NCBI GenBank assembly: GCA_035610835.1
Contig: CM069446.1
Location: 68,929,062-68,993,061 of the forward strand
DNA from: Ophiura sarsii
Lineage: Eukaryota > Echinodermata > Ophiuroidea > Amphilepidida > Ophiuridae
DNA: 64,000 nt
Reading direction: 5' to 3'
Part shown: positions 1,838-57,800 of the stretch, in pieces
Layout of the letters: each line of letters begins with the position of its first letter
Numbering within the stretch: the first letter of the stretch is position 1
Made by a program: the position numbers and the translations under genes
The notes under the pieces: generated by a model
The model's input: only the letters and a program-made list of their open reading frames with translations
What the model was told of the DNA's origin: nothing
Database searches by the model: none

Positions 1838-1843
1838 TTTTAT
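1838..1843 (-). promoter_or_regulatory. Candidate polyadenylation signal of NLR-1
   Basis: AATAAA on the minus strand, about 43 bases after the stop codon. The same hexamer is kept at the matching place after NLR-2 (49115-49120). Cleavage site not determined. Confidence 0.45.
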
Positions 1844-1885
1844 TATAATAGGCCCATACATATCATAAACACCATCATACTTTAC

Positions 1886-4572
1886 TTACACTAATTGGTG
1901 GTATCCCTTCTCCCGACACAGCTCAACTAGGTCATAGAAGTCATCAGTCTCAAGAGAGATATGGTACAGCAGTAGGTATTTCATATTTGATGCAGACTGT
2001 AACTTATCTTTGAAGTGCTGCCAGGTGGTGTTGTTGACTTGTGGTGGTGTGTCACGGTGAGCTCTCATAGTAAGTACATACAGGTGTGGTAGTGATCCCA
2101 TCACATTGGCAACATTCATCATCATATCGTCTGGATATGGGCTGTCATAGATCAATAGATCCTCAAGATGAGACAGGTGATGCATGCTTGATAACAGCTG
2201 GTTGTGATATCTCTTGCTAATACCATCCACACTGATGTACAGGTACTTCAACATACTTGCCATAGGTAGATTGGATACCAGGTGCTTTGCAACAGTGTCA
2301 TCCATTGCATTTCCATCTATCATCAACTGTACCAACTGTAATGCAAACCCTGGTAATTTATGTGCAAACTCCCCCATTGATTGCACTGTTGCATGCATAT
2401 CACCAATATGGAGTATTTGCACTGATTTCAGGGATGACAGAGAATCAGCCATAATTGGCAGACTATCCCCTGCTGTATTACGGGATGTATCAATCCGTCT
2501 CAAACATGGCATTTTTCTGATTGCTCTCGCCAATCTCTCCATCTGATGTCCATTCATGCCGATGTGACCCACACACAGCTGTGATAAGTGCTTCATATGA
2601 CCCTTATCAATCACCTCTATCAGTACATCTGCTTTGTCTCCTAATAATGGGCACCCTGTTATGTCTAGTATCTCAAGTTGCAGATATTGCAGTGCCTTTA
2701 TTAAAGGACCAATATTGGATACTGTAGCACCCGAAAAACCCTCACAATCCTGCATTATTTTTTTCTTGGCCAGTGCATAATGAGGTGATGCATATACAGG
2801 TTTCTCATAGCGACACAACTCCTGGTACATATTTTTCACTTCAATTAATGGAATCTTTGTTAAGGCTAGCTGGTATTCATTAAGTCTCTTCTTTAGGGTA
2901 TTTGACATTAATGTAGTGTTTGACACGTATGTAGTTGCTTTGAAGTCGAGTGACTTGATTTGGCCAGCTTGTGAGTATAATATGTAGTATCTCAATGCTT
3001 CACAGGTAAGTGCAGACATATTTAAAAATGTGACCTTCCCTTTGGGAAACAGATCTGTAATTAATTTGCTGGACTCACTCTTTCCATCTGTTTCAAAGTT
3101 GCATGCAAGACATAATTCTAGGAAATGCTGTATCTTAATGGTATTATCTAGGTCCAGGTTTCCTTTATAGTATTTCAATATGTGTGGTTGTAATTCTTGT
3201 TTGAATATCTCCATGAGCTTTTGTAGGACTTGATCAGCTGCTTTCACATTGGCGCCACTTGCAAACTGTAATATAAGTTGAACACTAAGTGCATCTTGAA
3301 CAGAATTCAGTGATCGCAGTTGAGATAATAGCTCCTCAAGATTCTCATCAGCAAGACTTGCTAGGTATACTCCTGCACATTTCTCACCACATGTCTTGTG
3401 GAAGAATGTTAGTGATGCTTGCATGCGGGTGTGAAAAATGGAGGGAGGGGATTCCTGTTTTGACAAATACCCTATCTGGCATGATTTTTCAACCATTTCA
3501 CTATCTGATGCTTCGTCAGGAGAAAAAACAATCCTGTTTTCAGGAGGCCACATTCCTTTGAGGGCCATTTCGCCAAGCTGACATTTTAAGTTCTTAATGG
3601 TGTCATCGTCTTCGGTTGACCTCTTTCCCAGTTTGTTTTGATACATGATGTTGATTATTGCATCATAGAGATGGCTGATTCTGTTTGGTAAATGTTCTCT
3701 TCCCTGGATGTTCCTCCAGTAAATACAAACTAACAGGGTCATGAGTGGTACACTTGTCATGCTGGCTATCATTTCATTCTGATTCATGTATTCTATCAAA
3801 GAAACACCTAAACTCTCATCACTTTCCTTGAAGAATCTGTTGATGTACTTTGTGACATCCTCCTTCTTGAATTCTTGTATTTCAAAATGCATAAATGTTT
3901 TACATTTTGAAGTTATCTCTGTTATGCGCCATGGGCGGGTCATCACCACCAACCTGCAGTTTACCAAGATTTTGCCGGTGAGTAATTTCACAATTCTGCC
4001 ACTGTTTCCAGAGGCATGGTTATACAACTCTCTATCTGATTCATCTACTGCATCAAGTATGATGATAACTTTCTTGCCAAGATCATGGATGATATTTTGA
4101 AGCTGCCTTGCTGTAATGTTGGAGTCTTCAGGAATCATGCCGGATGAAAGAATGGCATCTTCAAGATTGCTTGTATGGTCTAACCCTCTCATATTCAGCA
4201 CAAATAAAAGGGGGACATCTTTGACAGGAGATCCTTCTTTCTTAGTTGCCCAGTCATAAGCGATCTTGGCTGCGATTATAGATTTGCCTGATCCTGCTGG
4301 AGCTGATACTAAAAGTCTAGTATAGAGAGCACCTTCATCAGACTTTCGTGTAAACATCTCTCCGTATGAAGCTAATGGAATCTTTAAAGGTTTGCCAGTT
4401 GTTGGTATAGATAGGTTGAAGTATAGGTTGATGTATATATCCTTCAGATTGATTAGAGTCTTATTATCACCAGGGAACAGTGGAATTTTGCAGAGGGTAT
4501 CGATGTAGTATTGACGTAGATATTCCTGGCACTTTTTTAGTATGGAATCTTCTGACTGTTTTTCAGGCATAT
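1886..4572 (-). CDS. NLR-1 exon 9: NACHT ATPase and leucine-rich repeats, terminal exon
   Basis: A long exon of 895 codons including the stop. NACHT motifs, in exon residues: Walker A APAGSGKS (90-97), Walker B VIIILDAVDES (about 168-178), sensor LVVMTRPWR (about 208-215). A helical region follows with M-T-S-V-P-L-M-T-L-L-V-C-I-Y. Degenerate leucine-rich repeats begin near residue 615 (LEILDITGC, LSQLCVGHIG, LRRIDTSRN, VQILHIGDM) and run to the C-terminus. The in-frame ATG at 4570 is probably not a start. The exon begins two bases earlier after ATTTTTATAG, and the paralogue has CTG at that codon. The stop TAA at 1888-1886 overlaps a potential donor (TTAGT|GTAAGT). Confidence 0.93.
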
Positions 4573-7500
4573 CTATAAAAATAATATTACAATAATATTA
4601 ATCCAATGTGTTAATTAAAAATTATTGAATATATTTTATAAAACTTTTGGTTGTAATAAATGAACTAATGTTTCATTAGTGGTTTGCCATATTATATTAG
4701 TTCATACAATAAAACAGTTTCGAATCTGGCAATGTCATTTAGTGGACAAGATAAACTTATGGTTAGGTTTGCATTTAAACATAAATTGATACCTTGGACT
4801 TTGATTAAAATGGCAGAAAAGGAAGTAACAATCATAACAATTATGTAAACAATATTATAATGTTTAAAATACAAATGTTTAGTTCAGTTTATTTACAAAC
4901 AGTTCAGCAATAAAATTGTATTCCATTAACCCTAACCTCCTAAGTCACATTTTGAAGAATTTTTTTTTCAACGACAAAAACGCGGACAAAAAGAGTGGCG
5001 CCGCCACCAGGGCTCGAACCCACAACCTCTCGGTTGTCAGACGAACGCTCTACCAGTGCGCCACGGGGGGGGGGGGAGGGGGGGGGCAACGATACTTGGG
5101 CCAGTGTATTGGCCCGACTATGAAGCCTGGGGCCATTATTTCATCGAAAAAGTGCCACGCCAGCTGGCACAGACAGACTTTACCGTGCACATTTGCGGCA
5201 TTGAGGATGGTTAGGGTTAATAAAATCATACATTGAAAATTTTGAAAAGAAAAAAAAAGAGAAAAAAAATTCCGTTAACCCTAACCTCCTAAAGTCACAT
5301 TTTGAAGATTTTGTTTTTCAACGACAAAAACGCGGACAAAAAGCGTGGCGCCGCCACCGGGGCTCGAACCCACAACCTTTCGGTTGTCAGACGAATGCTC
5401 TACCAGTGCGCCACGGGGGCCAACGATACTCGGGCCAGTGTATTGGCCCGACTATGTAGCCTGGGGCCATTATTTCATCGAAAAGTGCCACGCCAGCTGG
5501 CACAGACAGACTTTACCGTGCACATTTGCGGCATTGAGGATGGTTAGGGTTAAGTAACATAAGCACAATAATGTTATTTTAATTCAATTCATTGTCACCC
5601 AAGTTTGTCCGAGTCTATATGTTATTTATTTATCTAACTCATCTGTATCCTTTGCTTGATTCTCGTGTTGATTTAATTGAGTTTCGCTAGTCATAGGTTC
5701 AGGTTCTGCATCAAACCCTGAAAAAATTATTTATTTTGGTTGGGTGGTTTTCAAGATATGGTCCATTGAACATTACTTCAGCAAAACAGACTTGTCCACG
5801 GAGCTTCACAAACCAGGTTTGGAACCGGCAATAATCAAGTTTTGATGTCTCACTTGTGTTCAATCATGCCTTTGCTCCAAGGACAAGTCTGATTTGTTAA
5901 GCAATGTTCAATAGATTATATCTTGAAAAGCACTCAACCAAAATTTCAGGGTAGATGCTCCATTGCCCATTCTTTATAATAAAATAAAAAACACAGATAT
6001 CAAATTACAGGAAGTGGAAAAATATCACTTTCATTTTGGGTGAACTTTTTATTGGGTCACCCTGTACATGGCGGAATATACCCCGCCCCCCCCCCCCCCC
6101 CCCCCCCCCCCTGAGGTCTTGGGTTCGAGCCCCAGGGGTGTGGGGGCACTTTTTCCTTGGAAAAGGTGCCTCGGGGGTTAGGGTTATTAAATCCTTTTTA
6201 TTACACTATTTTTGTACAGGGTGTGTCAAAAAAGTGTCCCATGTCCCATCTGGCCATGAAATACACTGCCGCCCATAAGTATTTCCCCCTCTGGAAGCTT
6301 GCAAGTTAACACTGTGTTGTCGACAAAGTATTAAACCATCAGACCCAATGACCATTTCATTGTGTTCATTGTACATTTTATGCCAATAAATTCATGTTTC
6401 CTATTCAGATTCATGATTTAAAAGCATTAGAATTCATGATTTTATCGAGCAAGTCAAAATTCCAATGTAAAATCGCCGTAGTAAATCACCTCATGAATAT
6501 CAATTAGCTCATTATCGGCAGTGTAACGCTATGGGAATTTTCAACTGAGATAAAATGGTGATGGGAAAACTCCATGTGCAGAAATTTATAAATGATAATT
6601 GGCATGCGCAGTTTATTAACTGTCCCTTGAACATACAGGTGTGTACAAAAGTGTCCCATGAATTAGAAAATTAATTAAAATACATCCCATGTCTTTTTTT
6701 GTTTTATCAGAATGGACTGTTGGTAAGCTCTATTAGTCCGTTATTAAATACACTTTATCCCATAAAATTTCGCAACTTAACTACCGAGATATGATATGAT
6801 CAATTCAGTAACACGAGTGCAAATCCCACTTTTGATCAAGAAATTGACTTTCAACTGAAAAAACTGCCTTTGTGATTCCGGTGACGATTTTAGGATGTCA
6901 ATTTCAATTAAAAATACCATCTAAAATTCAAATATTTGTCATGGAAAATATGGATAAAAATATGTTTTTGTTTAAATTCAACTAACAATCAACATTTATA
7001 GTTAGATTATTATTGATTTTATTGATTATGTTCAATTACACACTGAATGACGATTCTAATAAAAGGGCTCTCTTCACATGACAATTTTCTAAAGATGTCA
7101 AAACAAATTTTGTTATTGATCAATTCATTGTTGATCACTAAATAGTCAGAAATGTCTTTAAATAAAAAGTAAGAAATTTAAAAGAAAAATTATGTAATGT
7201 TGGCAAATTTTATTTGATTATGATGACTTTTGCTGTAAGTTGAGAATAATTTGGGACCAATTTTGGGAATTGGCACGTTTACTCACCAATATTCCATTTT
7301 CTTTTGAGTTTATCCAGAGATCCTTTGGCATTTGGAACTTTCTCAGCAGCCTTTATAAATGTATCAATTGTTGCATCATTTCCGTTCCTACTATACCAAA
7401 GATGTAGCATATCCTTTGCATTTTTGTTAGAAGAATAAGGAGCAATTTGCATATTGTTGATATCTGTTGTATCAAGACCAAGATGCTTGCACACATCTTC

Positions 7501-10500
7501 TAAGTGTTCATGTTCAAAAATCCCTACGATGTCTAGAATATGTATGTCCAAAACCACTGTTTGAGTAAAATAATACATACGAACCATCTATTACAATGTT
7601 ATAATTGTAAGAAAAAGTACAAAATGCTATGATACAAAGTCAATGTTCCAGTATCGGATGATACTGGCACATATAAAATGTTCAGGCCATACTGGAACAC
7701 ATGCACCAGTATTGCTCAATATTGGGACAAATCACTACTGTAACATTAATTGTACCATGCAGAGTGTCGCCCAACACTGTAACATAGATATGTTCCAGTA
7801 TCATCGTATTGTACCATAACCGAGCGATACTAATTTCATGTACCAGTATCGTGCGATACTGGTATAACAGTATCTGGGACCTAAAGTACACTTTTCCCTA
7901 AATTCTTTGTGCACAGGCCTCAGGATCTAATGCAATCTGTTGTGCATGATCATGAACATATTTAATTCCCAATTTATTTACTCATAGTTTAGTTACTCTC
8001 AGCTTGTGTTTACAATATATCCCTGCTTTATCCCTGGCCTTACATAGTTTTTGTATATTTATAATAACCTTGTATATGTGACACAAGTTAACCATGCATT
8101 TTATTTCTGATCGCCCAAATATTAATACAATAGCCATTAATTTCCTTTAATAGGGTCATCCAAAAATTATTGCCATTTTCACATATGTACAATGTACATG
8201 TATAAAAGTAAACATAAAAAGGTGGCATATATTGGAATTCAATCTAACAATGACAATTATGTCCCCTAACAACAAAATACTATATCCTCTCCATCTCTGG
8301 ACTATACAAAAACATCCCCTCTCTCTGGACTATACAAAAAACATCCCCTCTCTCTGGACTATACAAAAACATCCCCTCTCTCCATCCTGCCTTAGAATAA
8401 ATCTTACATGTCAATCACCAAGGATAGAATTGGGGGTATATTCAGTTTAACAACCTGTTTCAGTAATTCAGTAGAAGTCGGTGCTGGGGTTTGCTGCAAA
8501 CATGGGTGGCAAAATCAGTCTTTCGGTATTTATCAATGAACCCTTTTCAATGATAACTGGTGTAAAAGACCACACCAGTAGTCATAGACAATTGCTAGGA
8601 CTGATGTAATTCTATATTCTTCTAGGTATGGATGGCCCGTATAGTTTGTAATTTGTAAAAATAATTAACTCACAAGGCTCAACTAGGCAAGTTTCATCTG
8701 TCCTCTTCCTTTTTTTCTCTGTAGTTCTAGGCTCAACTGTGTGAGTTTCCTTTGTCCTTTTTCTTTTCTCTGTCGTTTTCCTTGTAGGTTCTGGCAGACC
8801 ATCAAAGGCTAAAAAAGAGAAATACAAATGGAAATAATATTATATGAAAGTTGTTTTATATTCAATAATTGTAGTGGATTTTTAACAATTTACTTTGTGT
8901 GACCTGAGTTAAGGCATGTCAATGCACTATTAATATTGTACAGATATTTAAAGTCAATTAACCCTAACCCTAATAATTCAAGGAGCCATCATATAGGCTA
9001 TGGTAATGACAAATTTGTTTTGATGAGCATGAATTACATGATGTAGTAGTGTAGAGACTGTTCTCTAACCCAGTAGGTTAGCCCAGATTTAATTCTGACC
9101 CACTCATAAGTAAAAACACTTTGGGGAGGTGGACTTTAATTCATTATAAATATGAATAGAATTGTCTTATGACCCTTCTCAAGCCTATATCTATTTCAGA
9201 ACGGAATATTTGATTTGGTTAAGTCTTCTATTCTACTAGTATTTATTAATATCTATATTTATTCCATTGATCCTGAAAGACTAAATCCTAAAACCACCCT
9301 GATTGAGTTAGAATTAATGACGTGTTGATATATTTTCCTAATCAGAACTGTGGTTCAGTTTTATAAAACAAGCTAACTTTTCTACATTTTAAATTTTGCT
9401 TTTCATATCTTACTTAATATACCAGAAGCCGCAACCGCCATCCTATGTCTCAAGTAAGGTGAAGGTAGGCAGTCTTGATAAAATTGTCTTGCAGGAATGA
9501 CATCTCCCTGTGCTGATTCGGAGGAGGATGCAGGGATTTGACCGACTGGTACTGTAGAAAAGGAATCAAATGTTTAAAAAGGTCGTTATATTATAACATA
9601 AACATGCTGACTTTTTTAATTGTACGGCATAACGGCTAGGGATGGCGATGGTGCAGATAACAAAGCAAGCATAATGATGACAAATTTACAATTATTGGCT
9701 ATTTTCTTTAATTTGCTGTTATTACAACAGATCCAACGATTTGGTTATTCACATTTTAGAACACCCTCTCTCTTTGATGTTGTTATCTAAATGCATTTTT
9801 TGGTCAAATTACATTTTATAAAACATGAAACTAAAATATATTCTAACTTAAAGGTATATTATGTGATCTTTCCAGGGAACGCCCTCAACATCGAAAAAAA
9901 AACCTATTTTCTTGCAGATTTACATTTCTGATCATAAATCGTACATTCCAAGTTACAGGGCGATACGATTCTTAAATACATGACAGTTTATATTTTCACT
10001 CTAAAACCATGATTTTGAGGTAATTAGGAATCGAACCGCTCTGTAACTTGGAATGTATGTACGATTTATGATCAGAAATGTAAATCTGCAAGAAAATCAA
10101 CTTTCTTAAAAAAATCGTGAATAGAGGGCGCTCTCTGGAAAAGACCACATAATATGCCTTTAACAGAGCAATACGTTTTCTAATTACTTCATAGTCAAAG
10201 TTTGAAAATATGTGGTTGGATAACCCACAGCTTATTTTACGAGTGTTTTTCTCATTTGTTAGTAGAATTCTATGGTGTGATACTATGTTAGGGAGTCCGG
10301 GATAGTCTATATATCCTAATAACCCAAACTTCATTGTAAGAGAGAGAGAGAAAAACATTTGAAAAATATATATAATATTGCTTTGAGACAAATATGTAGG
10401 CTATACCCTAAATCTAGAGACACAAGTTTTCCGTTTTCTAATTGGGCAAATTCCGTTCAGAAAATTGCAATACCCACAGTTTTAGGTTTTGAATTATAAA

Positions 10501-13500
10501 TTTGACATAGGCAGGTCATTGTATGAATCATATTTTTGGAGTTTTTATGACCAATTAAAAGCCTAAAAAGCTAACATGATCTCATCAATGTATTTTCTGA
10601 AAAGTAATGAACCAAAACTGGTTTGCAACAAAACCATTGAATTCCGTTTTCTTAACCGGTAAAACGGACAACTTGTGTCTCTACAGGCTAAATCACACCA
10701 TACACCTGTTCCCATGAATGATGCCGTCAAAACAAGATTTTTTATGAAACGCACTAGTAAAGCCAACCCATAGATAACTACACATGTAAAGAAAAAGAAA
10801 CATTTGAACAGACCTAGACTTCTATAATGCCTCTCCCATACGTGGCCCAGCATTACAGGTTGTCCCTTGGTCTTGGAGGTAGCATCACCAACTATCCACT
10901 GGATAGACTGGTCACCAACTCCTTGAGGAGAACTTGTCACTATTAAAATGTCTCTGTTAAGCATGTGAGCCATGGCTACCAGAATGACTGCATCGGCGAA
11001 TTCACCATCTCTTGACATAGATTCTAAATAGGAGTTCCAATCAGATTGTGTAGCTGTAAGGTCAATCATGCCATCTGGTCCCTGAAAAGGAGTATAAATA
11101 TCATTATTTTGTGACTCCAATTGGTATTATATGCCGATATTTTAATGGGGAAGTTTAAAAGTTTCATTGACTGATTTTATTTTACTAGCCAATAGGTACA
11201 TCTCCTAAACAGAGTAAGTGTTGTGTGTGACCCCCTCTGGTAACTCATAAATAGTGCACTCATTTGGTGGACATGCCACTTTTACATGTACATGGGTTTC
11301 ACTATGGTGGTTAACAGCTATGTCTCAATGCTCACGTCAACGTTGGGTCATTCTCGAGGTCCTTCTCCTAGGCCCCATGACGCTTCCACTTTAATCTGGT
11401 CATTGGGACAATTAGTCTGTCTGTTGCCATTACATTGTCTCTGGTGATCCGATCTGGACTAGGGAGGGGGAGCAGCTACTCCCCTGTTTGAGCAAATTGG
11501 TTACCTTGTATGGTTCTCTCCCACATTTAGTGGGGAAGAGACCCTGTATTGGCGAAGTTCAATAAGCCGTTGATATAGTCCTACTGGTTACTTAAACATA
11601 TGATATTGATATATATGAGCTTGAGCTGGAGTTGAAATCATTGTTTCGCTGAATGGTGATATATGCATCCGCTGCATGGAGTTTCAAAAAATGCTTAAAT
11701 GGGGAAACGGTTTGACTGTGAACATAAAACATTAAGCATTCTTGCCAAAGCTATAAAATTTACTTTTAGGCATAATGTAAGGAAAGCTGTTGAAATTCTT
11801 GCTTAATGTATCTGAATGTCCTTAAGGAACATTTTTTATCATAAATACAGAAAGGCATGTGACCCGTCATATCAAATTGGACATGTTTGGAGGCCCGAGT
11901 CAAATCTGAATTATTTGTACGAATTGAATAAGCACATTTTAAGCTTTGAAATGACACCATTTTGAAGGTAATAGGACTTGTAATCCCAAGATATGATCTG
12001 AAGACGCATATTATTTTCTTTTATTTTCTTCATATTTTATACATTTTTTGTAGTAGCTACCACTGCATGTTTACATGGTAAAATTGTATGGAAGTGTGAC
12101 ATCTCCCATTGTTTATAGGACTTTGTATACAGTATTGCTCGTTCATCTAGTGCCCATTTAAACAAAGCCTCTGTGGTCTACAGTTGGTAATCCTTCATCC
12201 CGATAGCGAATTATGATGACTGGGTTCGTCTGAATATTAATAAGGTCTTTGTACAAATAATTAACGCCAGTTTGTCCGAGTCTAAATATTATTCATTCAT
12301 TTCACTTACTCTGCTTGTATCATTTGCTTGATCCTCATGTGTATTTAATTGAGTTTCGCTAGTCATACATTCTGCTAGAATCATGCATATATAGGCCAAT
12401 ATAATTAATAAATTATAAACTAATTGTTTACAAAGTTTACAAAATGTTCCACTCAAAAATAGACTATAGCCCTACTTTAAAGCTGAGATCTAAGCGCTCT
12501 ATGCATATTTGTTCAAATACTTACTTGAATACTTGGGTGGCTCCGTAGAAACTCAACTATGTTCATTCTGATCTGAGCAGCCGACTGAGGACAGCCCAGC
12601 AGAGACAACTGATCTGAAACTGCATGAAAGAAGCAGTTGCCATCTGATGGGGTGTTGCCATGGAATGCGAGACCATGTAGTCGGCAATTCCTAAATAGTC
12701 GCTTCTCAGCATCAACTCCTGTTGAAGTTATCTGAATCAACTTGAAGGCGCGGCTTACTGCGGTAGGGTCAAAATATTTATAACCTTGGAAAATATAAAC
12801 AAGTTAAAGTTACTAACAGTTATATCAACATAAATGGAAAATGTGAGCACCTTCTGTATCGGTGTATAGACATGAATTATTGTATGAGACTATTGTGCAT
12901 CAGACATGGAGCATTATAGGCTGCTAGTTCAAATCCTTTGCTTTGTAGCTTATATATTGGGATAAAAAATTCTATAATAATTAAGGCCACATGTTTTGAA
13001 CTCGCCACCCTTTGTGTTACGTCTTCAGATTTAAACAGTTTTCACCATCTGAGATTTGAATTATAGCATATCGCATTAACTATACTTACTCTACCCCATG
13101 AAAAGTATGTAATTATTTTGTGAACAAAAATCTCACAAGGAATCCAAATATGCCATTGTAATTTAGACAGGGCCTAATACTAACATATAATGACTGACAA
13201 TGTTTTGATTTCAAAATGTGCGGCTGTAACAAGAGTATAGTCGCTCATGTCTGCATATGGAACACATGCACCCTTTAACCATAACCCTTCTACACATATT
13301 GTACCGAGTGACGGCCCGGTCCATCTCGTACCACGCTCCACCATTCAACTTGCGAGAATAACCAGTATAGTTCAGTCGTTAAGTCTCAGACTTGCACCCA
13401 CGTGGCCCAGGTTCGTTCCCTGGTGCATGCGAACACTGATTTCCCCCTCAAATGTAACCAGTTTTTCTGCCCTGATAGTTTAATTTACAAAATCACGCCC

Positions 13501-16480
13501 GGGAAGCTACGGTTCAAACGCACCTTTTTCCTGATCTGTGGCGATGGGAATCTCATCTACCCTGTGAGTTGGTTCTTGCACTCTGGTAGGTATCTGCTTC
13601 ACTTCTTCAAAAACTTCTTCTAGCAAATTGTAATGTTTCTTGATTTCAGCCTGCATGTCTTGGGTGGTCTGATGTGCTACACGTTCTACAGTATTTACTA
13701 TCACATGTTCCGTCTCCTTGATGTCAGTTTGCACTTTGTTGACAATCTGACTTGCGACTTCTTCTACTAAATCTTCTAGAACCTTCTTCTTCTCCTCTGT
13801 TGTGACAGGTCCAGTCTTAATCTATTAGAAAATAGAATGTTATCCATACATATTGAATGTTAAGAAATCCCGAAAACCATTTAAACCAAACAATCATAAA
13901 CTATACATGATATGATACAATATCAAAATCATATCGGTGTTAATTATCATCACTAATTGTGTGATAGGCTTTTGATAGTCATGACATAATATGATGAAGA
14001 GCCTTAATGTACTTGTAAATTGCAACCTTGTCCCCTATGGACTGAGGACTAGCAGGGACTTGGGCCTGGGCTGGGGTTGTAATCAATAACAGGAATGTCA
14101 TTGAGTAAACAGGTTTACAACTTTTTACTTTCAACCTTTCATCAAAATGAACTTCCAATGCCTAAGTTCTTTTAAATAAACCCCATAAACAGATAAACAG
14201 GCCCTTGTCAATACAGAATTACCAATTGGCTTTGCCCTTGCCAGAAAATGTGATGCGAACTGGTGTCACTTTGGTATCCCCAATTATGACTCTGAAAATG
14301 ACATTTACATTGGCTGCCACATGTCAATTATAGAGTTTAGAATTCTGTTGGTGGTTTCTGAATGCATCGCACATCCATGAGAAAATAACACGACAAATTA
14401 AGCCAGTAGGGCCTAGGAGAATAAATAAAGCGAAATAAGACTATTAAAGCAAGATTTTCATTTATTGTGAGATGAATTCAGCAGTTGTACAAAAAAGATA
14501 CAATTGATTTGATTATTGCTTAAACTCGGCAGGTAATAGTGTTATTTAGTGTGGAGTTTGTTTATGGCAAGATCAGCACAAAATATCTCCTTTACCCATA
14601 ATCCTATGCATTTACCTGTTTAAGTTGTATCCTGATATCCAGAGCAAGTTGTGATGTAAACAACAGAGGATGCAGTTCCTCCAGACAAGTTATCAAATCA
14701 TCAATGTCACTGAAGATGTCATTCACCTGTTGGTCATCTAGATATAGGTTGTCTTCTAACTGCATGTGGCACAGCTTGTTTCTGGCATCGAAGACCTATT
14801 GAGGGAAAAAATGAATGTTGACAGAATTGATAGACTGGAGGACAGAATATCTAATCACAGATCAATTGCCTACAAGAACACAACTTGTTTGTGGCAATGG
14901 AGACCTACAATTGAGAGCGAAAATGAATATTGAATGGATTTATAGACTGGAGGACAGAATATCAGATCAATTGCCTACAAGAACACAACTTGTTTGTGGC
15001 ATTGGAGACCTATAATTGAGAGAGAAAATGAATGTTGAAAGAATTGATAGACTGGAGGACAGAATATCTGATCAATTGCCTACGAGAACACAGCTTGTTT
15101 GTGCATTGGAGACCTATAATTAATAGGGAAAATGAATGTTGAATGGATTGATAGACTGGAGGACAGAATATCAGATCAATAGCTTGTTTGTGGCATTGGA
15201 GACCTTGAAGGAATACATTAATGTTGAAAGCATTAATACATTCACTGTAATGCTGACTCGCCAGTTAGGGTGCAATCATTATTATTATCACACTTGCGTG
15301 AGAATACAATGGTAGCTAGAACGGTGATGTCGGCCAGAGAAGTCACAAATTGAACTGGTGATTTAAGAACAACTGCTGGTGGCGCATCGTATTGCGAAAT
15401 ATACCAAGAATTGTATTTGTATATACTGTTAGGATACCAAGAATTGTATTCGTATACAATTAGGATGCAACATAGTGCAGTTACTGTGCATTGTTTTCAT
15501 TCTATACAGACAGTGTACTCACAATAAACGAGTGACCTATGCACCCATTGTGTACTATAGGACAAGAGTTACATGTAGTCTAAAAATTCACTGTTACGGT
15601 ACTGGAAATGTTTTGAATTCTTTTTTTATTATTAAAAAAATGTTCTAAAACTTGGGACAAAAGCAAACAAAAACAAAGGTCCGTACGCCTGTAAACAGTT
15701 TTGATTTGATTTTGTAGCCAAAGCACAGTTTGGCCAAGATATAAATGTGACCATTTGCCGTCAAACGAACTGATCTTCTTTAACAATAAATTGGCTATGA
15801 GCAAAAAGCTCAAATTCAAAATACATCCTACTGTATAATTTTAATAAGATGGACATTGTCAATTTTCATCCCCCAGATTTATAAGCATTTTGTTACAATA
15901 ATACCCCCATAGGTTAAAACTATCTTTTCGGCAACCCCCCACCCCCCCCCCCCCCCCCCCCCCCCTCTCCTGGGACAGTGTTTGGTTACCTTTTTGATGA
16001 TATCAAACTTGTTTTGATCTCTTCCATGAAATACTTCAAAGTGCATCATGATCATAAGGACACTAGCCGAGTCAAAATGCTCCATGGCGGTGTACTGTTT
16101 ATCACGCTGCAGTCGAAGAACAAAAGCTTTGGCAACCTCAACATGACTTGTTGGTAGACACAATGGACTGACATTACCCCATGGCATCTTGTGTTTTGAT
16201 GTTTGTGGGAAGTACACATCTTCTACCGACTTCCCCCAAGCGACACAGTTTGAGCACGATGATGAAGATTTACATGTAGGCTTTCCGATGTCTTTGCATT
16301 CTTGGGGATTTGATGGCGGCCTTGGTCTGGGACGACTACACGATGGTAGCGTTTGACGTTGTGTTGCATGCCAGGCTTTCAAGACATCATCTGCACATGA
16401 AATTGATTGGTGAACTACAAGATGTAAGGCCTTGCAGCATCTGATGAAGCCATCTGCATTCATGCCAGCTGCAGCCATTG
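1886..16480 (-). CDS. NLR-1: predicted nine-exon HEPN-coiled coil-OTU-Death-NACHT-LRR gene
   Basis: Composite model in minus-strand order: 16480-15990, 14795-14616, 13821-13524, 12784-12525, 11081-10814, 9551-9423, 8808-8674, 7556-7287, 4572-1886. Every border is AG/GT and the phases match throughout: 0 after exons 1 and 2, 1 after exon 3, 0 inside the OTU pair, then 1 at every later junction. The product is about 1,571 residues. It joins a CXorf38/DZIP3-like HEPN module, a coiled coil, an OTU protease, basic linkers, a Death domain and a NACHT-LRR sensor. Known families suggest a cytosolic immune receptor of the expanded invertebrate NLR type. No transcript is available, so two genes (HEPN-OTU and Death-NACHT-LRR) or alternative splicing remain possible; phase agreement over eight introns argues for one gene. 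Further 5' exons may lie right of 16480. Confidence 0.72.
4926..5220. mobile_element. TTAA-flanked element with internal tRNA-like unit, copy 1
   Basis: Begins TTAA-CCCTAACCTCC and ends GGATGGTTAGGG-TTAA, so short inverted ends are flanked by TTAA, the target of piggyBac-type insertion. It contains a minus-strand tRNA-like sequence and a G tract expanded to about 23 bases. The paralogous site in NLR-2 is also TTAA and carries a different element. Confidence 0.6.
5000..5070 (-). tRNA. tRNA-like sequence (Val-GAC-like), probably a pseudo-tRNA, copy 1
   Basis: The minus strand has A box TGGCGCACTGGTAGAGCG, anticodon loop CTGACAA (GAC) and B box GGTTCGAGCCC. The acceptor end is spoiled by the adjoining G-run expansion. 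It probably serves as the polymerase III promoter of a SINE-like unit, or is captured cargo, not a working tRNA. Confidence 0.4.
5275..5553. mobile_element. TTAA-flanked element with internal tRNA-like unit, copy 2
   Basis: Same inverted ends (CCCTAACCTCC / GGATGGTTAGGG) and TTAA borders as the unit at 4926-5220, separated from it by about 54 A-rich bases. No ORF of meaning. Confidence 0.62.
5350..5420 (-). tRNA. tRNA-like sequence (Val-GAC-like), copy 2
   Basis: 71 bases. Acceptor arms GCCCCCG and TGGCGGC pair at six of seven positions. D-arm/A box GTGGCGCACTGGTAGAGC, anticodon stem TTCG/CGAA with loop CTGACAA, T arm GTGGG-TTCGAGC-CCCGG with one mismatch. This is better preserved than the first copy. 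Mismatches and the element context suggest a pseudo-tRNA. Confidence 0.45.
5626..5717 (-). CDS. Candidate alternative terminal exon in the NLR-1 Death-NACHT intron
   Basis: Acceptor AATTTTTTCAG|GG followed by 29 codons and TAA, entering in phase 1 and therefore in frame with the Death exon. The peptide is acidic and polar (GFDAEPEPMTSETQLNQHEN...). If used, it would end the protein after the Death domain and omit NACHT-LRR. A related 100-base sequence lies at 12270-12371 between the OTU exons. No copy is visible in NLR-2. It may equally be an inactive duplicate of a linker exon. Confidence 0.33.
5733..5946. mobile_element. Short inverted-terminal element (MITE-like)
   Basis: Left end TTTTGGTTGGGTGGTTTTCA and right end TGAAAAGCACTCAACCAAAA are inverted. 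Inner parts also pair (CAGACTTGTCC...GGACAAGTCTG). Noncoding. Confidence 0.55.
6085..6190 (+). repeat. Poly-C run and tRNA-like fragment
   Basis: About 26 C residues are followed by GAGGTCTTGGGTTCGAGCCCCAG, a B-box-like sequence, then GGTTAGGGTTA. It resembles the 3' part of the tRNA-like units at 5.0-5.5 kb in the opposite orientation. Confidence 0.4.
7287..7556 (-). CDS. NLR-1 exon 8: Death domain
   Basis: Acceptor TACTCAAACAG|TG and donor AATATTG|GTGAGT enclose 270 bases (phase 1 both sides, about 89 residues). The helical pattern is that of a Death-fold domain: HILDIVGIFEHEHLEDVCKH, L-G-L-D-x2-D-I, then MLHLWYSRNGNDATIDTFI, which corresponds to the helix 4/5 signature (L-x2-W-x-x-R-x-G-x2-A-T). 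Death domains self-associate and recruit adaptors or kinases; many invertebrate NLRs carry one before NACHT. Splicing to exon 9 gives KWNI-D-MPEK. The paralogue at 54825-55094 is nearly identical and also fully open. Confidence 0.86.
7643..7872. repeat. Cluster of CAGTATCG hairpin repeats
   Basis: Repeated short palindromes such as CCAGTATCGGATGATACTGG and CCAGTATCGTGCGATACTGG. Related clusters occur at 27812-27945 and 55181-55425; the last is the paralogous position in NLR-2. Confidence 0.6.
8295..8382 (+). repeat. Minisatellite, 28-29 bp unit, about three copies
   Basis: Unit CTCTGGACTATACAAAAA(A)CATCCCCTCT repeated head to tail within the NLR-1 linker-Death intron. Not coding. Confidence 0.8.
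8674..8808 (-). CDS. NLR-1 exon 7: basic repeat linker exon
   Basis: Acceptor TCTCTTTTTTAG|CC and donor GAGCCTT|GTGAGT give 135 bases, phase 1 in and out. The peptide contains two near-identical units, TTEKRKRTKETHTVEP and TTEKKRKRTDETCLVEP, so it arose by internal duplication. The Lys/Arg clusters (EKRKR, EKKRKR) resemble monopartite nuclear localisation signals, though this is only a compositional match. Its opening A-F-D-G-L-P-E-P resembles the candidate exon at 5626-5717 (G-F-D-A-E-P-E-P), which suggests the two are related linker exons. Confidence 0.6.
9423..9551 (-). CDS. NLR-1 exon 6: short linker exon
   Basis: A 129-base open interval between TTTCTACAG|TA and GGCTTCTG|GTATAT, entering and leaving in phase 1. 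It encodes about 42 residues, Ser/Ala-rich first (QIPASSSESAQGDVIP), then an aromatic-basic end (YLRHRMAVAAS). No domain is recognised. It is proposed because the phase fits both neighbours and the polypyrimidine acceptor is good. It lies between the OTU and Death exons. No copy was found in the second gene. Confidence 0.5.
9848..10163. mobile_element. TTAA-flanked MITE, family 1, copy A
   Basis: TTAA-AGGTATATTATGTGATCTT at the left and AAGACCACATAATATGCCT-TTAA at the right. The arms are inverted over most of the element. Related copies at 28541-28937 and (truncated) 52197-52325. piggyBac-like by target site only; no transposase. Confidence 0.68.
10814..11081 (-). CDS. NLR-1 exon 5: OTU domain, catalytic His half
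   Basis: Acceptor CTCCTTTTCAG|GGA and donor AGTCTAG|GTCTGT (phase 0 in, phase 1 out; the donor is a weak GT). The joined sequence SHPSIQ|GPDGMIDL runs into W-x2-YL-x2-M-x-DGE-x2-D, a common OTU helix where the protease recognises its substrate. It continues with an A-x-A-x2-LNRDILIV strand and ends in LGHVWERHYRSL. The His of ERHY (His494) is the general base of the OTU triad. With exon 4 the domain is about 175 residues, within the normal OTU range. Translation past the donor is hydrophobic and lacks domain character, supporting a splice here. Confidence 0.85.
11082..12269 (-). other. NLR-1 OTU intron, left part
   Basis: No coding sequence recognised. AT-rich; includes a fragment with GTGACCCGTCA near 11858 that resembles the end of the MITE at 33938-34181. 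Confidence 0.5.
12270..12371 (-). repeat. Copy of the 5.6-kb candidate exon inside the OTU intron
   Basis: The minus strand reads acceptor TCTAGCAG|AATGTATGACTAGCGAAACTC and continues with clear similarity to 5600-5700 (MTSETQLN, HED/HEN-Q-A). From the preceding OTU exon (phase 0) it reaches a stop within three codons, so it is unlikely to be an OTU-linked exon. It is probably a duplicated and abandoned exon. Confidence 0.45.
12525..12784 (-). CDS. NLR-1 exon 4: OTU-type cysteine protease, catalytic Cys half
   Basis: Acceptor TTTTCCAAG|GT and donor ATTCAA|GTAAGT (phase 1 in, phase 0 out). After a helical lead-in (YKYFDPTAVSRAFKL) comes HGNTPSDGNCFFHAVSDQL, the hallmark OTU active-site loop D-G-N-C-x-F with Asp370 and nucleophile Cys373 in composite numbering. 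It is followed by the usual helix with R-x3-V-x-F-L. OTU enzymes hydrolyse ubiquitin chains or ubiquitin adducts. In animal OTU proteins this loop precedes the His by about 100-130 residues, as here (121). No counterpart was found in the paralogous gene between 55.1 and 61.2 kb. All residues needed for catalysis that can be seen are intact. Confidence 0.87.
13361..13436 (+). repeat. tRNA-derived SINE-like fragment, NLR-1 copy
   Basis: TATAGTTCAGTCGTTAAGT (A-box-like) and GGTTCGTTCCCTGG (B-box-like) at tRNA spacing. A paralogous copy is at 61098-61173, so the insertion predates the gene duplication. Confidence 0.5.
13524..13821 (-). CDS. NLR-1 exon 3: charged coiled-coil linker
   Basis: Acceptor TTTTCTAATAG|ATT and donor GAAAAAG|GTGCGT bound 99 codons plus one base (phase 1 out). 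The peptide is Glu/Lys/Val rich with heptad-like spacing (KKVLEDLVEEVASQIVNKV, then TQDMQAEIKKHYNLLEEV), as expected of an amphipathic coiled coil. Near its end EVKQIPTRVQEPTHRVDEIP is Pro-containing and probably extended. No enzymatic motif is visible. It probably spaces or oligomerises the N-terminal module. The paralogue exon (61261-61555) is three bases shorter overall but keeps both splice sites and the outgoing phase. Confidence 0.75.
14616..14795 (-). CDS. NLR-1 exon 2: HEPN domain with R-N-x3-H motif
   Basis: Exactly 60 codons, phase 0 at both ends, between acceptor CTCAATAG|GTC and donor AAACAG|GTAAAT. It opens with VFDARNKLCHM, so exon 1 ...DIIKK joins to give a helix carrying Arg168, Asn169 and His173 (composite numbering). 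This is the R-x4-H signature of HEPN domains, where Arg and His form the RNase site in active members. An acidic helix and an LHPLLF segment complete the fold. The exon is shorter than the default size of many gene finders. The paralogue exon at 62344-62523 keeps the motif and the same borders. Whether it cleaves RNA is unknown; many animal CXorf38-type domains have no assigned activity. Confidence 0.82.
14806..15212 (-). repeat. Tandem repeat built from the HEPN exon 2 splice acceptor, about four units
   Basis: Units of about 105-110 bases contain AACTTGTTTGTGGCATTGGAGACCTATAATTGAGAG on the plus strand. On the minus strand this is a decayed copy of the exon 2 acceptor and its first codons (VSNATNKL versus VFDARNKL). 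The codon matching the catalytic Arg is changed to Thr. A shorter array is at the same place in NLR-2 (62530-62775). Confidence 0.7.
15213..15989 (-). other. NLR-1 HEPN intron
   Basis: No exon recognised. A short open stretch around 15720-15819 is conserved at 63160-63262 but has no domain. It ends with a C run of about 22 bases (15944-15965) close to the exon 1 donor. Confidence 0.55.
15990..16480 (-). CDS. NLR-1 exon 1: CXorf38/DZIP3-like HEPN domain, first part
   Basis: An AG at 16482-16481 precedes CA and then ATG (16478), giving 163 codons to the donor AAG|GTAACC at 15990. A helical segment (MNADGFIRCCKALHLVV) is followed by a Pro/Arg-rich stretch, a Cys-x2-Cys (CSNC) and a conserved block with W-G-N-V, H-V-E-V-A-K-A-F and F-D-S-A-S-V-L-M-I-M-M. 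The order Cys-x2-Cys, W-x-N, E-V-A-K-A-F, acidic-hydrophobic helix, then R-N-x3-H in the next exon matches my knowledge of the CXorf38 and DZIP3 HEPN families. The ATG may be the start, or the exon may be internal and enter in phase 1, since an acceptor lies immediately upstream. A decayed copy of the exon's 5' end lies just upstream at 16564-16665. Confidence 0.8.
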
Positions 16481-49157: not shown

Positions 49158-51835
49158 TTAATACTCTAAAAGGTAGTATCCCTTCTCCCTACACAGCTCA
49201 ACTAGGTCATAGAAGTCATCAGTCTCAAGAGAGATATGGCCCAGCTGTAGGTATTTCATATTTGATGCAGACTGTAACTTATCCTTGAAGTGCTGCCAGG
49301 TGGTGCTGTTGACTTGTGGTGGTGTGTCAAGGTGAGCACTCATAGTAAGTGTATCCAGGTGTGGTAGTGATCCCATCACATTGGCAACATTTATTATCAT
49401 GTCGTCTGGATATTGGCTGTCATCGATCATTAGTTTCTCAAGATGAGACAGGTGATGCATGCTTGATAACAGCTGGTTGTGATATCTCTTGCTAATACCA
49501 TACACACTGATGTACAGGCGTTTCAACATACTTGCCATAGGTAGATTGGATACCAGGTGCTTTGCAACAGTGTCATCCATGGCATTTCCATGCATCCCCA
49601 ACTCTACCAACTGTAATGCAAACCCTTGTAATTTATGTGCAAACTCCCCCATTGATTGCACTGATGCATGCATATGCCTTGTATTGAGTATTTGCACTGA
49701 TTTCAGGGATGACAGAGAATCAGCCATAATTGGCAGACTTTCCCCAGCTGTATTACCGGATGTATCAATCCGTCTCAAACATGGCATCTTTCTGATTGCT
49801 CTTGCCAATCTCTCCATCTGATGCCCATTCATGCCGATTTCACCCACACACAGCTGTGATAAGTGTATCATATGACCATTTTCAATCACTTCTATCAGTA
49901 CATCTGCTTTGTCTTCTAAGTGGCACCCTGTTATGTCTAGTATCTCAAGTTGCAGATATTGCAGTGTACTAATTAAAGGACAAATATCGGATACTCCAGC
50001 ACCTGAAAAACCCTCACAATCCTGCATTATTTTTTTGTGGGCCAGTGCCAAATGAGGTGATCTATATACAGATGGCTCATAGTGACACAACTCCTGGTAC
50101 ATATTTTTCACTTCAATTAATGGAATCTTTGTTAAGGCTAGCAGGTATTCATTAAGTCGCTTCCCTAGGTTTTTTAATGTTGTGGATGATGTGGATGAAG
50201 CTGCTCTGAAGTTGAGTGACTTGATTTGGCCAGCTTGTGAGTATAATATGTAGTATCCCAATGCTTCACAGGTAAGTGCAGACATATTTAAAAACGTGAC
50301 CTTCCCTTTGGGAAACAGATCTGTAATTAATTTTCTGGACTGACTCTTGCCATCTGCTTCATAGTTGCAGGCAAGACATAAGTCTAGGAAATGCTGTATC
50401 TTATAGGTATCATCTAGGTCCAGGTCTCCTGTATAGTATTTTGATATGTCTGATTGTAATTCTTGTTTGAATATCTCCATGAGCTTTTTTATGACTTGAT
50501 CAGCTGCTTTCACATTAGCGCCACTTGCAAACTGTAATATAAGTTGAACACTAAGTGCATCTTGGACAGAATTAAGTGATTGCAGTTGATATAATAGCTC
50601 CTCAGGATTCTCATCAGCAAGACTTGCTAGGTATTCTCCTGCACATTTCTCACCACATGTCTTGTGGAAGAATGTCAGTGATGCTTGCATGCGGGTGCGC
50701 AAAATGGAGGGAGGGGATTTCTGTTTTGACAAATACCCTATCTGGCATGATTTTTCAACCATTTCACTATCTGATGCTTCGTCAGGAGAAAAGACAATCC
50801 GGTTTTCAGGAGGCCACATTCCTTTGAGGGCCATTTTGCCAAGCTGACATTTTAAGTTCTGAATGGTGTCATCGTCTTCGGTTGACCTCTTTCCCAGTTT
50901 GTTTTGATACATGATGTTGATTATTGCATCATAGAGATGGCTGATTCTGTTTGGTACTTCTCCTCTTCCCTGTATCTCCCTCCAGTAAATACAAACTAAC
51001 AGGGACATGAGTGGTACGCTTGTCATGCTGGCTATGATTTCATTCTGATTCATGTATTCTATCAAAGAAACACCTAAACTCTTACTTTCCTTGAAGAACC
51101 TGTTGATGTAGTTTTTGACATCCTCTTTCCTAAATTTTTGGATTTCAAAATGCATAAATGTTTTACATTTTGCATTTATTTCTGTTATGCGCCATGGGCG
51201 GGTCATCACCACCAACCTGCAGTTTACCAAGATTTTGCCGGTGAGTAATTCCACAATTCTGCCACTGTTTCCAGAAACATGGTTATACAACTCTCTATCT
51301 GATTCATCTACTGCATCCAGTATGATGATAACATTGTTGTCAAGATCACGGATGGTACTTTGAAGCTGTTTTGCTGTTATGTCGGAGTCTTTAGGAATCA
51401 TGCCAGATGACAGAATGGCCTCTTCAAGATTGCTTGTATGGTCTAACCCTCTCATATTCAGCACAAATAAAAGGGGGACATCTTTGACAGGAGAGCCATC
51501 TTTCTCAGTTGCCCAGTCATAAGCGATTTTGGCTGCGATTATAGATTTGCCTGATCCTGCAGGTGCTGATACCAAAAGTCTAGTATAAAGAGCATCTTCA
51601 TCAGACTTTCGTGTGAACATCTCTTCGTAGGAATCCAATGGAATCTTTAAAGGTTTGCAAGGATTTGGTAGAGACAGGTTGAAGGATAGGTTGATGTATA
51701 TATCCTTCAGGTTAATGAGAGTCTCATTATCACCAGGGACAAGTGGAATTTTACAGAGGGAATTGATGTAGTATTGACGTAGATACTTCTGGCACTTTTC
51801 TAGTATGGAATCTTCTGACGGTTTTTCAGGCAGAT
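49158..51835 (-). CDS. NLR-2 exon 5: NACHT ATPase and leucine-rich repeats, terminal exon
   Basis: Acceptor ATTTTTACAG|AT then CTG-CCT-GAA..., 891 codons to TAA. Walker A APAGSGKS (exon residues 90-97), Walker B VIIILDAVDES with an Asn-Asn before it, and sensor LVVMTRPWR are all intact. The LRR part runs to ...EKGYYLLEY. It is highly similar to NLR-1 over the whole length; differences concentrate in the region before and within the LRRs (for example HLEDKADVLIEVIENGHMIH). CTG replaces the ATG of NLR-1, showing that this is an internal exon and not a start. Unlike NLR-1, no donor-like GTAAGT overlaps the stop. Confidence 0.93.
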
Positions 51836-54800: not shown

Positions 54801-57800
54801 TTGCGAACTGCCCAGTTTACTCACCAATATTCCATTTTCTTTTGAGTTTATCCAGAGACGCTTTGGCATTTGGAACTTTCTCAGCAGCCTTTATAAATGT
54901 AGCTATTGTTGCATCCTTTCCGTTCCTACTATACCAAAGATGTAGCATATCCTTTGCATGTTTGTTAGAAGAATAATGAGCAATTTGCACATTGTTGATA
55001 TCTGTTGTATCAAGACCAAGATGCTTGCACACATCTTCTACGTTTTGGTGTTCGAAAATCTCTACGATGTCTAGAATATGTATGTCCGAAACCACTGTTT
55101 GAGTAAAAAATACATACGAACCATCTATTACAATGTTATAATTGTATGAAAAAGTACAAAATGCTATGATACAAAGTCAATGTTCCAGTATCGGATGATA
55201 CTGGCACATATAAAATGTTCAGGCCATACTGGAACACATGCACCAGTATTGCTCAATATTGGGACAAATCACTACTGTAACATTAATTGTACCATGCAGT
55301 GTCGCCCAACACTGTAACATAGAAATGTTCCAGTATCATTGTATTGTACCAAAATCGAGCGATACTAGGAAATTTCATGTACCAGTATTGTGCGATACTG
55401 GAACATGTATAACAGTATCTGGGATCTAAAGTACACTTTTTCCTAAATTCTTTGTGCACAGGTCCCAGAGTCTAATGCAATCTGTTGTGCATGATCATGA
55501 ACAAATTTATTTTGGTGTTCGAAAATCTCTACAATGTCTAGGATATGTATGTCCGAAACCACTGTTTGAGTAAAAAAATAGATACGAACCACATTACAAT
55601 GTTATAACTGTTTGAAAAAGTACAAAATGTTATAAAATTGCCCTACACATATAACTTTTAAAATAGAAACATCTATTTTTCATAAGATGTTATCATTCAG
55701 GCACAACGATGTCACTGCCGATTCTTGGGAGCATTTAGACATTCTTTTTCTGCTCTAGAGTAAGTTTTGAAGAACTTCAAATGTCTGCATCATTTTTAAT
55801 GGCTAAAGCATGGAAAATGTTCAGGAAAAAATCAAAGCTGAGGGCTATCTTAGTCTATTTCAAATTGATAGACTAAGATAATAAAAGGTCCTTCTATATA
55901 AGACTTAGTCAAGGACTACAAGTTCAGCTAGCACTAAATTTGGAAAAGTGTACTTTCTTTAGATCTAATATTCTAGGCTTTACTAGTAATTGGATGATAC
56001 TGGCACATATAAAATACTGACACATATAAAAATGTTCCAGTATCGGATTTGTTGTTCCACTTAATGTACAGTTTAAAATTGTATTATATAAAACGCTCAG
56101 CTAATTACATTCCAATATTGCAGACAAACAATACAGCCTTTCATGTGGCTGTCAATCAATAAGCATCGGTAATTATCTTTGGAGTTGGTACCATATGATT
56201 GTAATAGGATTAACTGGCCACAAATTACTAATCGCTAACATGAATATAATATGAGTTTAACCTATATTTGTTATGTTAGTTTTGAAAATATTTTTATATT
56301 TCTTTCACATTTTAATAGTTTATTTGTATATATGAAAGACAAATAGCATTATTATGAAATTCAACATCTCGCCTTTAAAAAAATAAAAAATAAAAAACCC
56401 ACTAAAATACGTGGAGTGCATTGAAAGTGTCTAATGCACTACGCGTGCATGCAGGCAGTTCAATGCGCAAACCATGTGCTTTGTTTTGATTCATTGTTTA
56501 GTTATCGCCGATTTTCTCTGCAGGTGTTATCAAACTTGTTAATTGTTATAAGTGATGGGTGGAAAATTCAAATGCTTATTATTGTGTTCAAATGTTTAAC
56601 AGATATGAGTCCAACATATTATATTTATCATCCAATTTTGAATTTGTACATAACTATCACAATCATACTACCAGAAATCATACAAGTAATACTTTAGTCA
56701 TGAAAATTCAACTCAAATTACGGTATGCACACTTTACTTTTCGGATCTGGCCAACTATGGAACAGTTTATCACCATCTATCCGTACTGATTTAGAAAATA
56801 TATCACTAGGCCAATTTAAATCTTATGTTTCAACTCTGAATAATGTCATAATTTGTATATACATGTATATATTTAAATAATGTTGCATTTGTTATTAATG
56901 CATGTATGTAAGTATGGTTCAATAAAACGTTGACAGTTTTTTGAAGCCATTTTTTTAAAATTCTGTAGATTTAAAAAAAGATTTTTTTTTCAATTCATCA
57001 ACTATATGATCTTGACCACCTATGCTAAAAAATATCGTTACAAATAACCTTACGGTTGCAAAATAACAGCTATTTGAACAAAGTCTGTCCCATTTCACTC
57101 TGTCCAAGGGTACTGATTTCGCTTTAAACATGTTTATGATGCGTGACTTCCATGCAAGTAATCTAAGATTTGAAGATCCCGCCAGGTGAAACCATTGTTA
57201 ACATCTTAACTATCTATTCAGGTGTGTAATCAATACGTAATAATTATACCATAAGTGACCTAATTAGAATGATTGATTTTCATAGATTGGAAGTGTAATT
57301 GTCTATAATCTATGCCTTAAAAGTGACGATGCCATTTAATGTTATCTTGCTGGTCATTTCCCGTAGACTTACCTGTGGAAAAAGAGATTTTGGAGAGATT
57401 TACAGCATAGATGGCCAAGATGATATTTTTTGAAGAATATGTAAAAAAAATTAAACCAAATATGAAAAACTGTCAACGTTTTATTGAACCACACTGTATG
57501 TATCGAAATCAAAAATTGTCGATATGCAATTGAGCTAATTTTCAATTTACCCCCGGCCCCTGAAAATGGTTTAGTCCCGGTCACGCCCTACGGGTTTTTG
57601 TCCCATCGTTTGGGCATGCATGGGGTGCTATTCCTGAGCGCTTTCGCGGCTGACTCCGTTAGGATTTTGCGGGCTCTTGCGTGGCGTTTTCTCTTGTGCC
57701 ATATTGTTTCATGTCATCAATGCGAGAGGTTGGTGTTTGTTGTTCGTGTTGGAGGTGAAAAAATGTCACCACCCACCTACCTTTGTACAAGGTTTGCCAT

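Follow-up and report, generated by a model that had tools for sequence, protein, structure and literature searches.

The window analysed here, 64,000 nt of contig C6 in a 1.57-Gb genome, contains on its minus strand the locus under study, which we term gene A (16478-1886; Table 1). Its nine exons are separated by eight introns, all of them with GT/AG borders (8/8), and the phases after successive exons (0, 0, 1, 0, 1, 1, 1, 1) join these exons into one open frame of 4716 nt that encodes 1571 amino acids plus the stop. The encoded modules follow the order HEPN (CXorf38 type, DUF4559)-OTU-Death-NACHT-LRR-like repeats. Borders and phases were re-derived and returned both the nine phase-compatible exons proposed in the initial annotation and the single 1571-residue frame, and the signature residues to which it had pointed are all present: R168-N-K-L-C-H173 in the HEPN (codons at 14783 and 14768), D370-G-N-C373 in the OTU (Cys373 at 12635) and H494 of the ERHY motif (10829). 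A possible poly(A) signal follows the stop codon, such AATAAA/ATTAAA motifs occurring at 2.1 per kb on the minus strand of the window.

Table 1. Features of gene A and paralog B in the window.
Feature	Coordinates	Strand	Remarks
Exon 1	15990..16478	-	Start codon at 16478; CXorf38-type HEPN, N-terminal half
Exon 2	14616..14795	-	HEPN helix with Rx4H; phase 0 at both ends
Exon 3	13524..13821	-	Coiled end of DUF4559; end phase 1
Exon 4	12525..12784	-	OTU first half, DGNC; acceptor phase 1, donor phase 0
Exon 5	10814..11081	-	OTU second half, GHVWERHY; end phase 1
Exon 6	9423..9551	-	Linker, 129 nt, symmetric 1-1
Exon 7	8674..8808	-	Basic linker, 135 nt, symmetric 1-1
In-frame ATG before exon 8	7557..7587	-	31 nt before acceptor; A and P1 have it in frame, B does not
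Exon 8	7287..7556	-	Death domain, 270 nt, symmetric 1-1
Exon 9	1886..4572	-	NACHT and C-terminal LRR-like repeats; stop 1888-1886
AATAAA/ATTAAA motif	1839..1844	-	~42 nt past stop of gene A; possible poly(A) signal
Paralog B exon 1	63528..64000	-	Extends beyond window edge; 1-nt deletion breaks frame
Paralog B exon 2	62344..62523	-	HEPN Rx4H
Paralog B exon 3	61262..61555	-	Homologous to A exon 3
Paralog B Death exon	54826..55092	-	Matches exon 8
Paralog B NACHT-LRR exon	49167..51833	-	86% identical to A exon 9

The phases divide the central part of gene A into units of one symmetry, as exon 3 ends in phase 1, exons 4 and 5 together (528 nt) and exons 6, 7 and 8 individually are 1-1 units, and exon 9 starts in phase 1. 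Each of these units could therefore be gained, lost or skipped in frame, and 1-1 modules are the classical exon-shuffling pattern in animals. The splice borders compared are kept in P1, P2, P3 and B, four paralogs described below. Of the 25 coding indels listed relative to gene A, 23 are multiples of three, a count that omits one gap in B corresponding to the window edge and whose members are not independent, since several in-frame indels are common to more than one paralog. The two frame-breaking indels, deletions of 10 nt and 1 nt, both fall in exon 1, in P1 and B, respectively. On the evidence of the kept borders and in-frame indels the exon structure of gene A is beyond chance, and exons 1-9 are likely to be spliced into one RNA; the joint between exons 7 and 8, for which phase and paralogy provide the basis, is likely as well.

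The introns of gene A harbor further elements. Intron 8 carries a tRNA-Val-like gene (5349-5420, minus strand; 38.6 bits) that was also reported by ARAGORN, together with a second, degenerate tRNA-Val-like copy at ~4990-5090, recognized by eye in near-repeated surroundings; the pair looks like a tRNA-derived short interspersed repeat. Two intronic pieces (5717-5602 and 12367-12269) are 83% similar, and the former reads like an extra exon-7-like exon (FDAEPEP...) with a GT donor in a different phase.

Module identities

Of the domain identities assigned in the initial annotation, DUF4559, OTU, Death and NACHT were upheld by Pfam matches above cut-off in the joined protein, and the leucine-rich repeats fell short of it. 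DUF4559, which we take to be the CXorf38-family HEPN (the 2013 paper on that family does not use this name), spans residues 59-313 at 66.5 bits against a cut-off of 27. Four cysteines read from the exon 1 sequence (C61, C69, C75 and C78) could form an inserted Zn ribbon within this HEPN. Rx4H is present in 13 of 13 listed exon-2 copies including that of gene A, 12 of which read RNKL(C/S)H and one RNDLSH. The CXorf38-type HEPN family in this genome is very large, its first exon being found at approximately 93 loci (124 scored matches on C3, C8, C16, C10, C15, C19 and other contigs), a figure that is a lower bound.

The OTU match (38.8 bits, cut-off 23.3) covers residues 368-462. Its Cys and His loops align with those of OTUD5, and profile comparison places OTUD5 (E 9e-8), OTUD3 (2e-5) and OTUD1 (4e-5) nearest to it among solved structures. 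Cys and His are invariant across the eight OTUs chosen for alignment. Judging from these motifs, the product of gene A may act directly on ubiquitin and RNA, as the initial annotation had suggested.

The Death match (residues 606-659) exceeds its cut-off narrowly, at 23.8 against 22.6 bits. A predicted model of exon 8, built from 4 sequences, contains six helices (pLDDT 72.9), and a Foldseek search with this model returned Death-domain structures as the best 21 of the 50 hits listed, all with E of 0.029 or higher. NACHT is matched over residues 765-926 at 70.1 bits (cut-off 26.7) with an intact P-loop (Walker A), GSGKS, from residue 770. LRR_14 reached 28.5 bits, below the cut-off of 40, and the AlphaFold model of exon 9 displays strand-helix repeats over approximately residues 634-888, the last ~260, where pLDDT ranges from 52 to 92 by blocks of ten; as a whole the model is weak (50.7), too weak to serve in a structure comparison.

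Tandem paralogs and the OTU cassette across the genome

Own-genome searches with OTU, HEPN, Death and NACHT-LRR mapped a cluster on C6 between 68.7 and 71.7 Mb, in which the module sets other than those of A, B and the parts examined of P1-P3 are positions among the matches listed, not curated gene models. As read from these matches, gene A is not a one-off but belongs to a tandem family whose members differ in their modules. All nine exons are present in paralog P1 (C6:68.79-68.81 Mb), ordered and oriented as in A, with an 18-nt in-frame insert in exon 7; P1 exon 1 carries the 10-nt deletion, which leaves A as the only intact five-module copy seen. In P2 (69.08-69.09 Mb) and P3 (71.68-71.70 Mb), HEPN, OTU, exon 6 and NACHT-LRR follow one another, and Death is absent from the matches listed there; P2 has lost the GN of DGNC. 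The remaining arrangements are HEPN-Death-NACHT-LRR (B, 69.03-69.04 Mb and 70.24-70.26 Mb), HEPN-NACHT-LRR (68.70-68.71 Mb) and Death-NACHT-LRR (68.84-68.85 Mb).

Paralog B shares the window with gene A, and within its span (49-64 kb) neither OTU exons 4-7 nor a remnant of them was found at E 1. Inside the flanks that align, 7964-13277 of A (~5.3 kb) and 55509-60991 of B (~5.5 kb) have no shared same-strand blastn match of at least 60 bases except for a piece adjoining the Death exon. An intron of B holds a 1.7-kb palindrome (57975-59671) that is 84.6% identical to its own reverse complement and whose short ORFs resemble, by eye, Tc1/mariner transposase fragments. The B Death exon is partly duplicated at its beginning, and the copy (55510-55633, 93% identical to 55043-55167) lies at the edge where A and B diverge.

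A and P1 share 97-99% identity in the stretch that spans exons 2-5 and their introns (C6:68799-68806 kb against window 9154-15324), but 94% over exon 9; the HEPN/OTU half of the two genes may reflect either recent duplication or gene conversion. Exons and introns give a mixed picture between P2 and A, some introns being as similar as exons. Whole-gene dN/dS between close copies is 0.57-0.74, and the values above 1, for exon 5 of A and P2 (2.62) and for exons 3 (2.07) and 5 (1.04) of A and P3, stem from few synonymous changes, such that selection between close copies appears weak or unclear.

To place the OTU module in its genomic context, matches were scored for all 139 OTU candidates, 124 of 250 HEPN, 150 of 233 Death, 97 of 393 NACHT-family and 51 of 362 exon 9 candidates; because the NACHT, HEPN and Death candidates were scored in part, the absence of one of these modules near a locus is weak evidence. 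The tally of OTU neighbors drew on 82 of 103 OTU matches (41 first-half and 41 second-half exons), 36 of 150 Death, 31 of 152 NACHT (97 + 55) and 16 of 124 HEPN matches, leaving out those judged to lie on other contigs or distant from any OTU locus. A second OTU exon was found at 41 loci, and at 40 of these the same strand carries a first OTU exon no more than 9 kb upstream. At least 4 of the 41, all on C6, have a listed HEPN exon upstream. At least 11 are followed on the same strand by a listed NACHT at a distance of up to 20 kb, the other 30 having no NACHT downstream among the incompletely scored matches. Death lies between OTU and NACHT in five of the 11: two are A and P1, and the others are three C15 loci with OTU exons 58-76% identical to those of A. 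The OTU-Death-NACHT order thus recurs on another contig.

At a twelfth OTU-NACHT locus, on C17, a single stretch contains exons 5 and 6 together with a divergent NACHT. The first OTU exon of this locus lies 4.7 kb upstream, and 10 kb of upstream sequence contained nothing recognizable as an N-terminal partner. An exon 6 match follows the OTU exons in P1, P2, P3 and three C17 loci (L017, L018, which is the same locus as L072, and L019), the GT donor being absent at that place in L018. L072:4200-6200, at a C17 OTU-NACHT locus, is occupied by leucine-rich-like repeats of high regularity and, after them, acidic DGDH-type repeats; LRR models score below cut-off there. At two minus-strand loci on C16 (C16:6338056-6345668 and 6480545-6487790) a Death exon precedes the OTU pair, the reverse of the gene A order, and there is no NACHT downstream among the matches listed.

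Motifs and borders of the module are well kept: DGNC is present in 17 of 18 listed first-half exons (the exception being P2), and all 23 listed second-half exons have the HY that belongs to the His loop. Donors of the former are GT in 17 of 18 and GC in one, and all 23 of the latter are bordered by AG and GT. Comparison of the gene A OTU with those of seven C15 loci, from the ten C15 loci with both OTU exons available, gave dN/dS of 0.19-0.24 at dS of 0.77-1.04, and comparison with four C6/C17 loci other than P1 gave 0.42-0.59; the value of 1.47 between A and P1 is uninformative because introns there are likewise 97-99% identical. Codon comparison thus shows the OTU to be under purifying selection over long distances, and its genomic distribution is that of a shuffled cassette with approximately forty loci.

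Database proteins of Amphiura filiformis, entries that look like automatic gene models, include the same OTU module at 47-58% identity. It occurs as OTU-NACHT-LRR in P0049 (58% identical) and as partial OTU-DUF4559-NACHT in P0040 (52%), where the OTU precedes the HEPN and, as annotated, lacks the Cys half. Elsewhere it is found in DUF4559-kinase-OTU-OTU without NACHT (P0048), with kinase-NHL (P0052), TPR (P0053) or a trypsin-like domain (P0051), and with Schlafen-AlbA and a TNFR-like repeat below the Pfam cut-off (P0050). A further protein, P0015, is Death-NACHT without HEPN or OTU, its Death match also lying below cut-off. Searched against the genome studied here, P0049 gave a best long match of 43% and short ones of up to 59% (35 of 619 candidates scored). 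None of the database proteins matched, 38 in one search and 6 in another, combines all five modules. The module set read in the initial annotation recurs in this related species in part, as OTU with NACHT (once with HEPN), and not as the five-module whole. Since the A. filiformis proteins returned are at most 57% identical to their counterparts here, the genome studied is probably not that of A. filiformis; its relatives suggest another brittle star, so that the OTU-NACHT link probably exists in two species.

Interpretation of gene A

We consider it probable that gene A is one gene encoding an NLR-type HEPN-OTU-Death-NACHT-LRR receptor, which would have arisen through entry of a phase 1-1 OTU exon cassette into the HEPN-Death intron of a HEPN-Death-NACHT-LRR gene, or through its retention there. 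We infer a single transcript, catalysis, oligomerization and an immune role, and base the mechanism on family knowledge. The LRR/NACHT part would sense infection or stress and oligomerize via its NTPase, the Death domains would nucleate a signaling assembly, and clustered HEPN domains might then act as an RNase. The OTU, brought to this assembly, may trim ubiquitin from partners or from the receptor, and could in this way set the threshold or the kind of output.

The main rival, an unlikely one in our assessment, is that the locus gives rise to two products, exons 1-7 (HEPN-OTU) and exons 8-9 (Death-NACHT-LRR), through separate promoters or alternative splicing, and that these products come together in a complex or not at all. 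In A and P1, the ATG that lies in frame 31 nt before exon 8 makes a separate start for a Death-NACHT-LRR product possible, A. filiformis has proteins of either kind (Death-NACHT without HEPN/OTU in P0015, HEPN-kinase-OTU without NACHT in P0048), and skipping would be easy as all cassettes are 1-1. However, exon 7 contains no stop and its GT donor matches exon 8 in phase, the same ATG is out of frame in B, P2 and P3 run from OTU and exon 6 to NACHT-LRR with no Death among the matches listed, and P0049 joins OTU and NACHT-LRR in one annotated protein. A different role for the OTU would follow if it were an enzymatically dead or decoy module that mimics a pathogen-attacked target in the ubiquitin system and reports the attack to NACHT, a logic of integrated decoys that is known in plant NLRs. 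Shuffling of the OTU into very different proteins (kinase, TPR, NHL, trypsin-like, Schlafen-AlbA) and loss of GN from the DGNC loop in P2 are consistent with such a role, but retention of Cys and His in A and the eight chosen aligned OTUs, along with purifying selection over long distances, makes it quite improbable.

Split over two exons with kept borders, evolving with a dN/dS of about 0.2 between contigs and included in annotated A. filiformis proteins, the OTU is very unlikely to be a passenger, either an intronic remnant or transposon-borne, that is absent from the protein of a HEPN-Death-NACHT-LRR gene. Such a passenger would account for HEPN and NACHT occurring without an OTU match between them in B and at 68.71, 69.04 and 70.24 Mb on C6, and for two weaker OTU matches elsewhere in long ORFs (1135 aa at C10:10448977; 592 aa on C496), as transposon ORFs might contain; the transposon-borne version was rejected because of the split exons, kept borders and dN/dS. 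We give hardly any credence to gene A being a pseudogene or an assembly artefact, for although exon 1 is broken in two neighboring copies, A itself is open through nine exons and the OTU-NACHT pattern recurs on several contigs.

A broader and more tentative proposal is that brittle stars possess a combinatorial effector system, with the 1-1 OTU cassette shuffled between NLRs and further proteins of immune type. At this locus, one receptor would place a deubiquitinase and an RNase under NACHT-LRR control, activation would edit ubiquitin on the Death assembly as well as cut RNA, and alternative splicing of the symmetric cassettes would tune which effector is included. We regard this as possible and somewhat doubtful.

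Comparison with known systems

The OTU of gene A is related by profile to OTUD5 (DUBA), OTUD3 and OTUD1, a similarity that is remote, and we know of no fusion of these three proteins to NACHT, HEPN or Death. In A. filiformis P0049 and P0040 the same OTU is joined to NACHT, with HEPN in P0040, but in another order or subset and with no Death match. Fusions of CXorf38-family HEPN, which has an inserted Zn ribbon, to NACHT NTPases and DEATH have been described in cephalochordates and cnidarians (Anantharaman et al. 2013, PMC3710099). Gene A resembles these fusions in HEPN type, Rx4H and the presence of DEATH and NACHT, has cysteines that could correspond to the Zn ribbon, and differs from them in its OTU, a term with 0 occurrences in that paper. 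Similarly, the invertebrate NACHT-LRR receptors with N-terminal DEATH (NLRD) of the sponge Dysidea avara (PMC12909245) are like gene A in the position of Death before NACHT-LRR and in forming a large family, whereas HEPN and OTU have 0 occurrences each in that paper.

The view in the initial annotation that no known NLR carries both OTU and HEPN holds for the OTU within the literature searched, the OTU being the new piece, and needs amending for HEPN, whose combination with NACHT and DEATH was already reported (PMC3710099). A search of titles and abstracts, a scope outside which lie supplements, most subscription papers and bioRxiv preprints, showed no OTU-NLR fusion among the papers listed. 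Separate proteins are known to carry out ubiquitin editing of NLRs, as YOD1 does on NLRP3. If the reading of gene A as one receptor is true, its built-in deubiquitinase-type domain would allow one to ask what a deubiquitinase does inside an NLR assembly, and the tandem cluster, in which forms of this receptor have or lack OTU and Death, would be useful for testing the contribution of each module.
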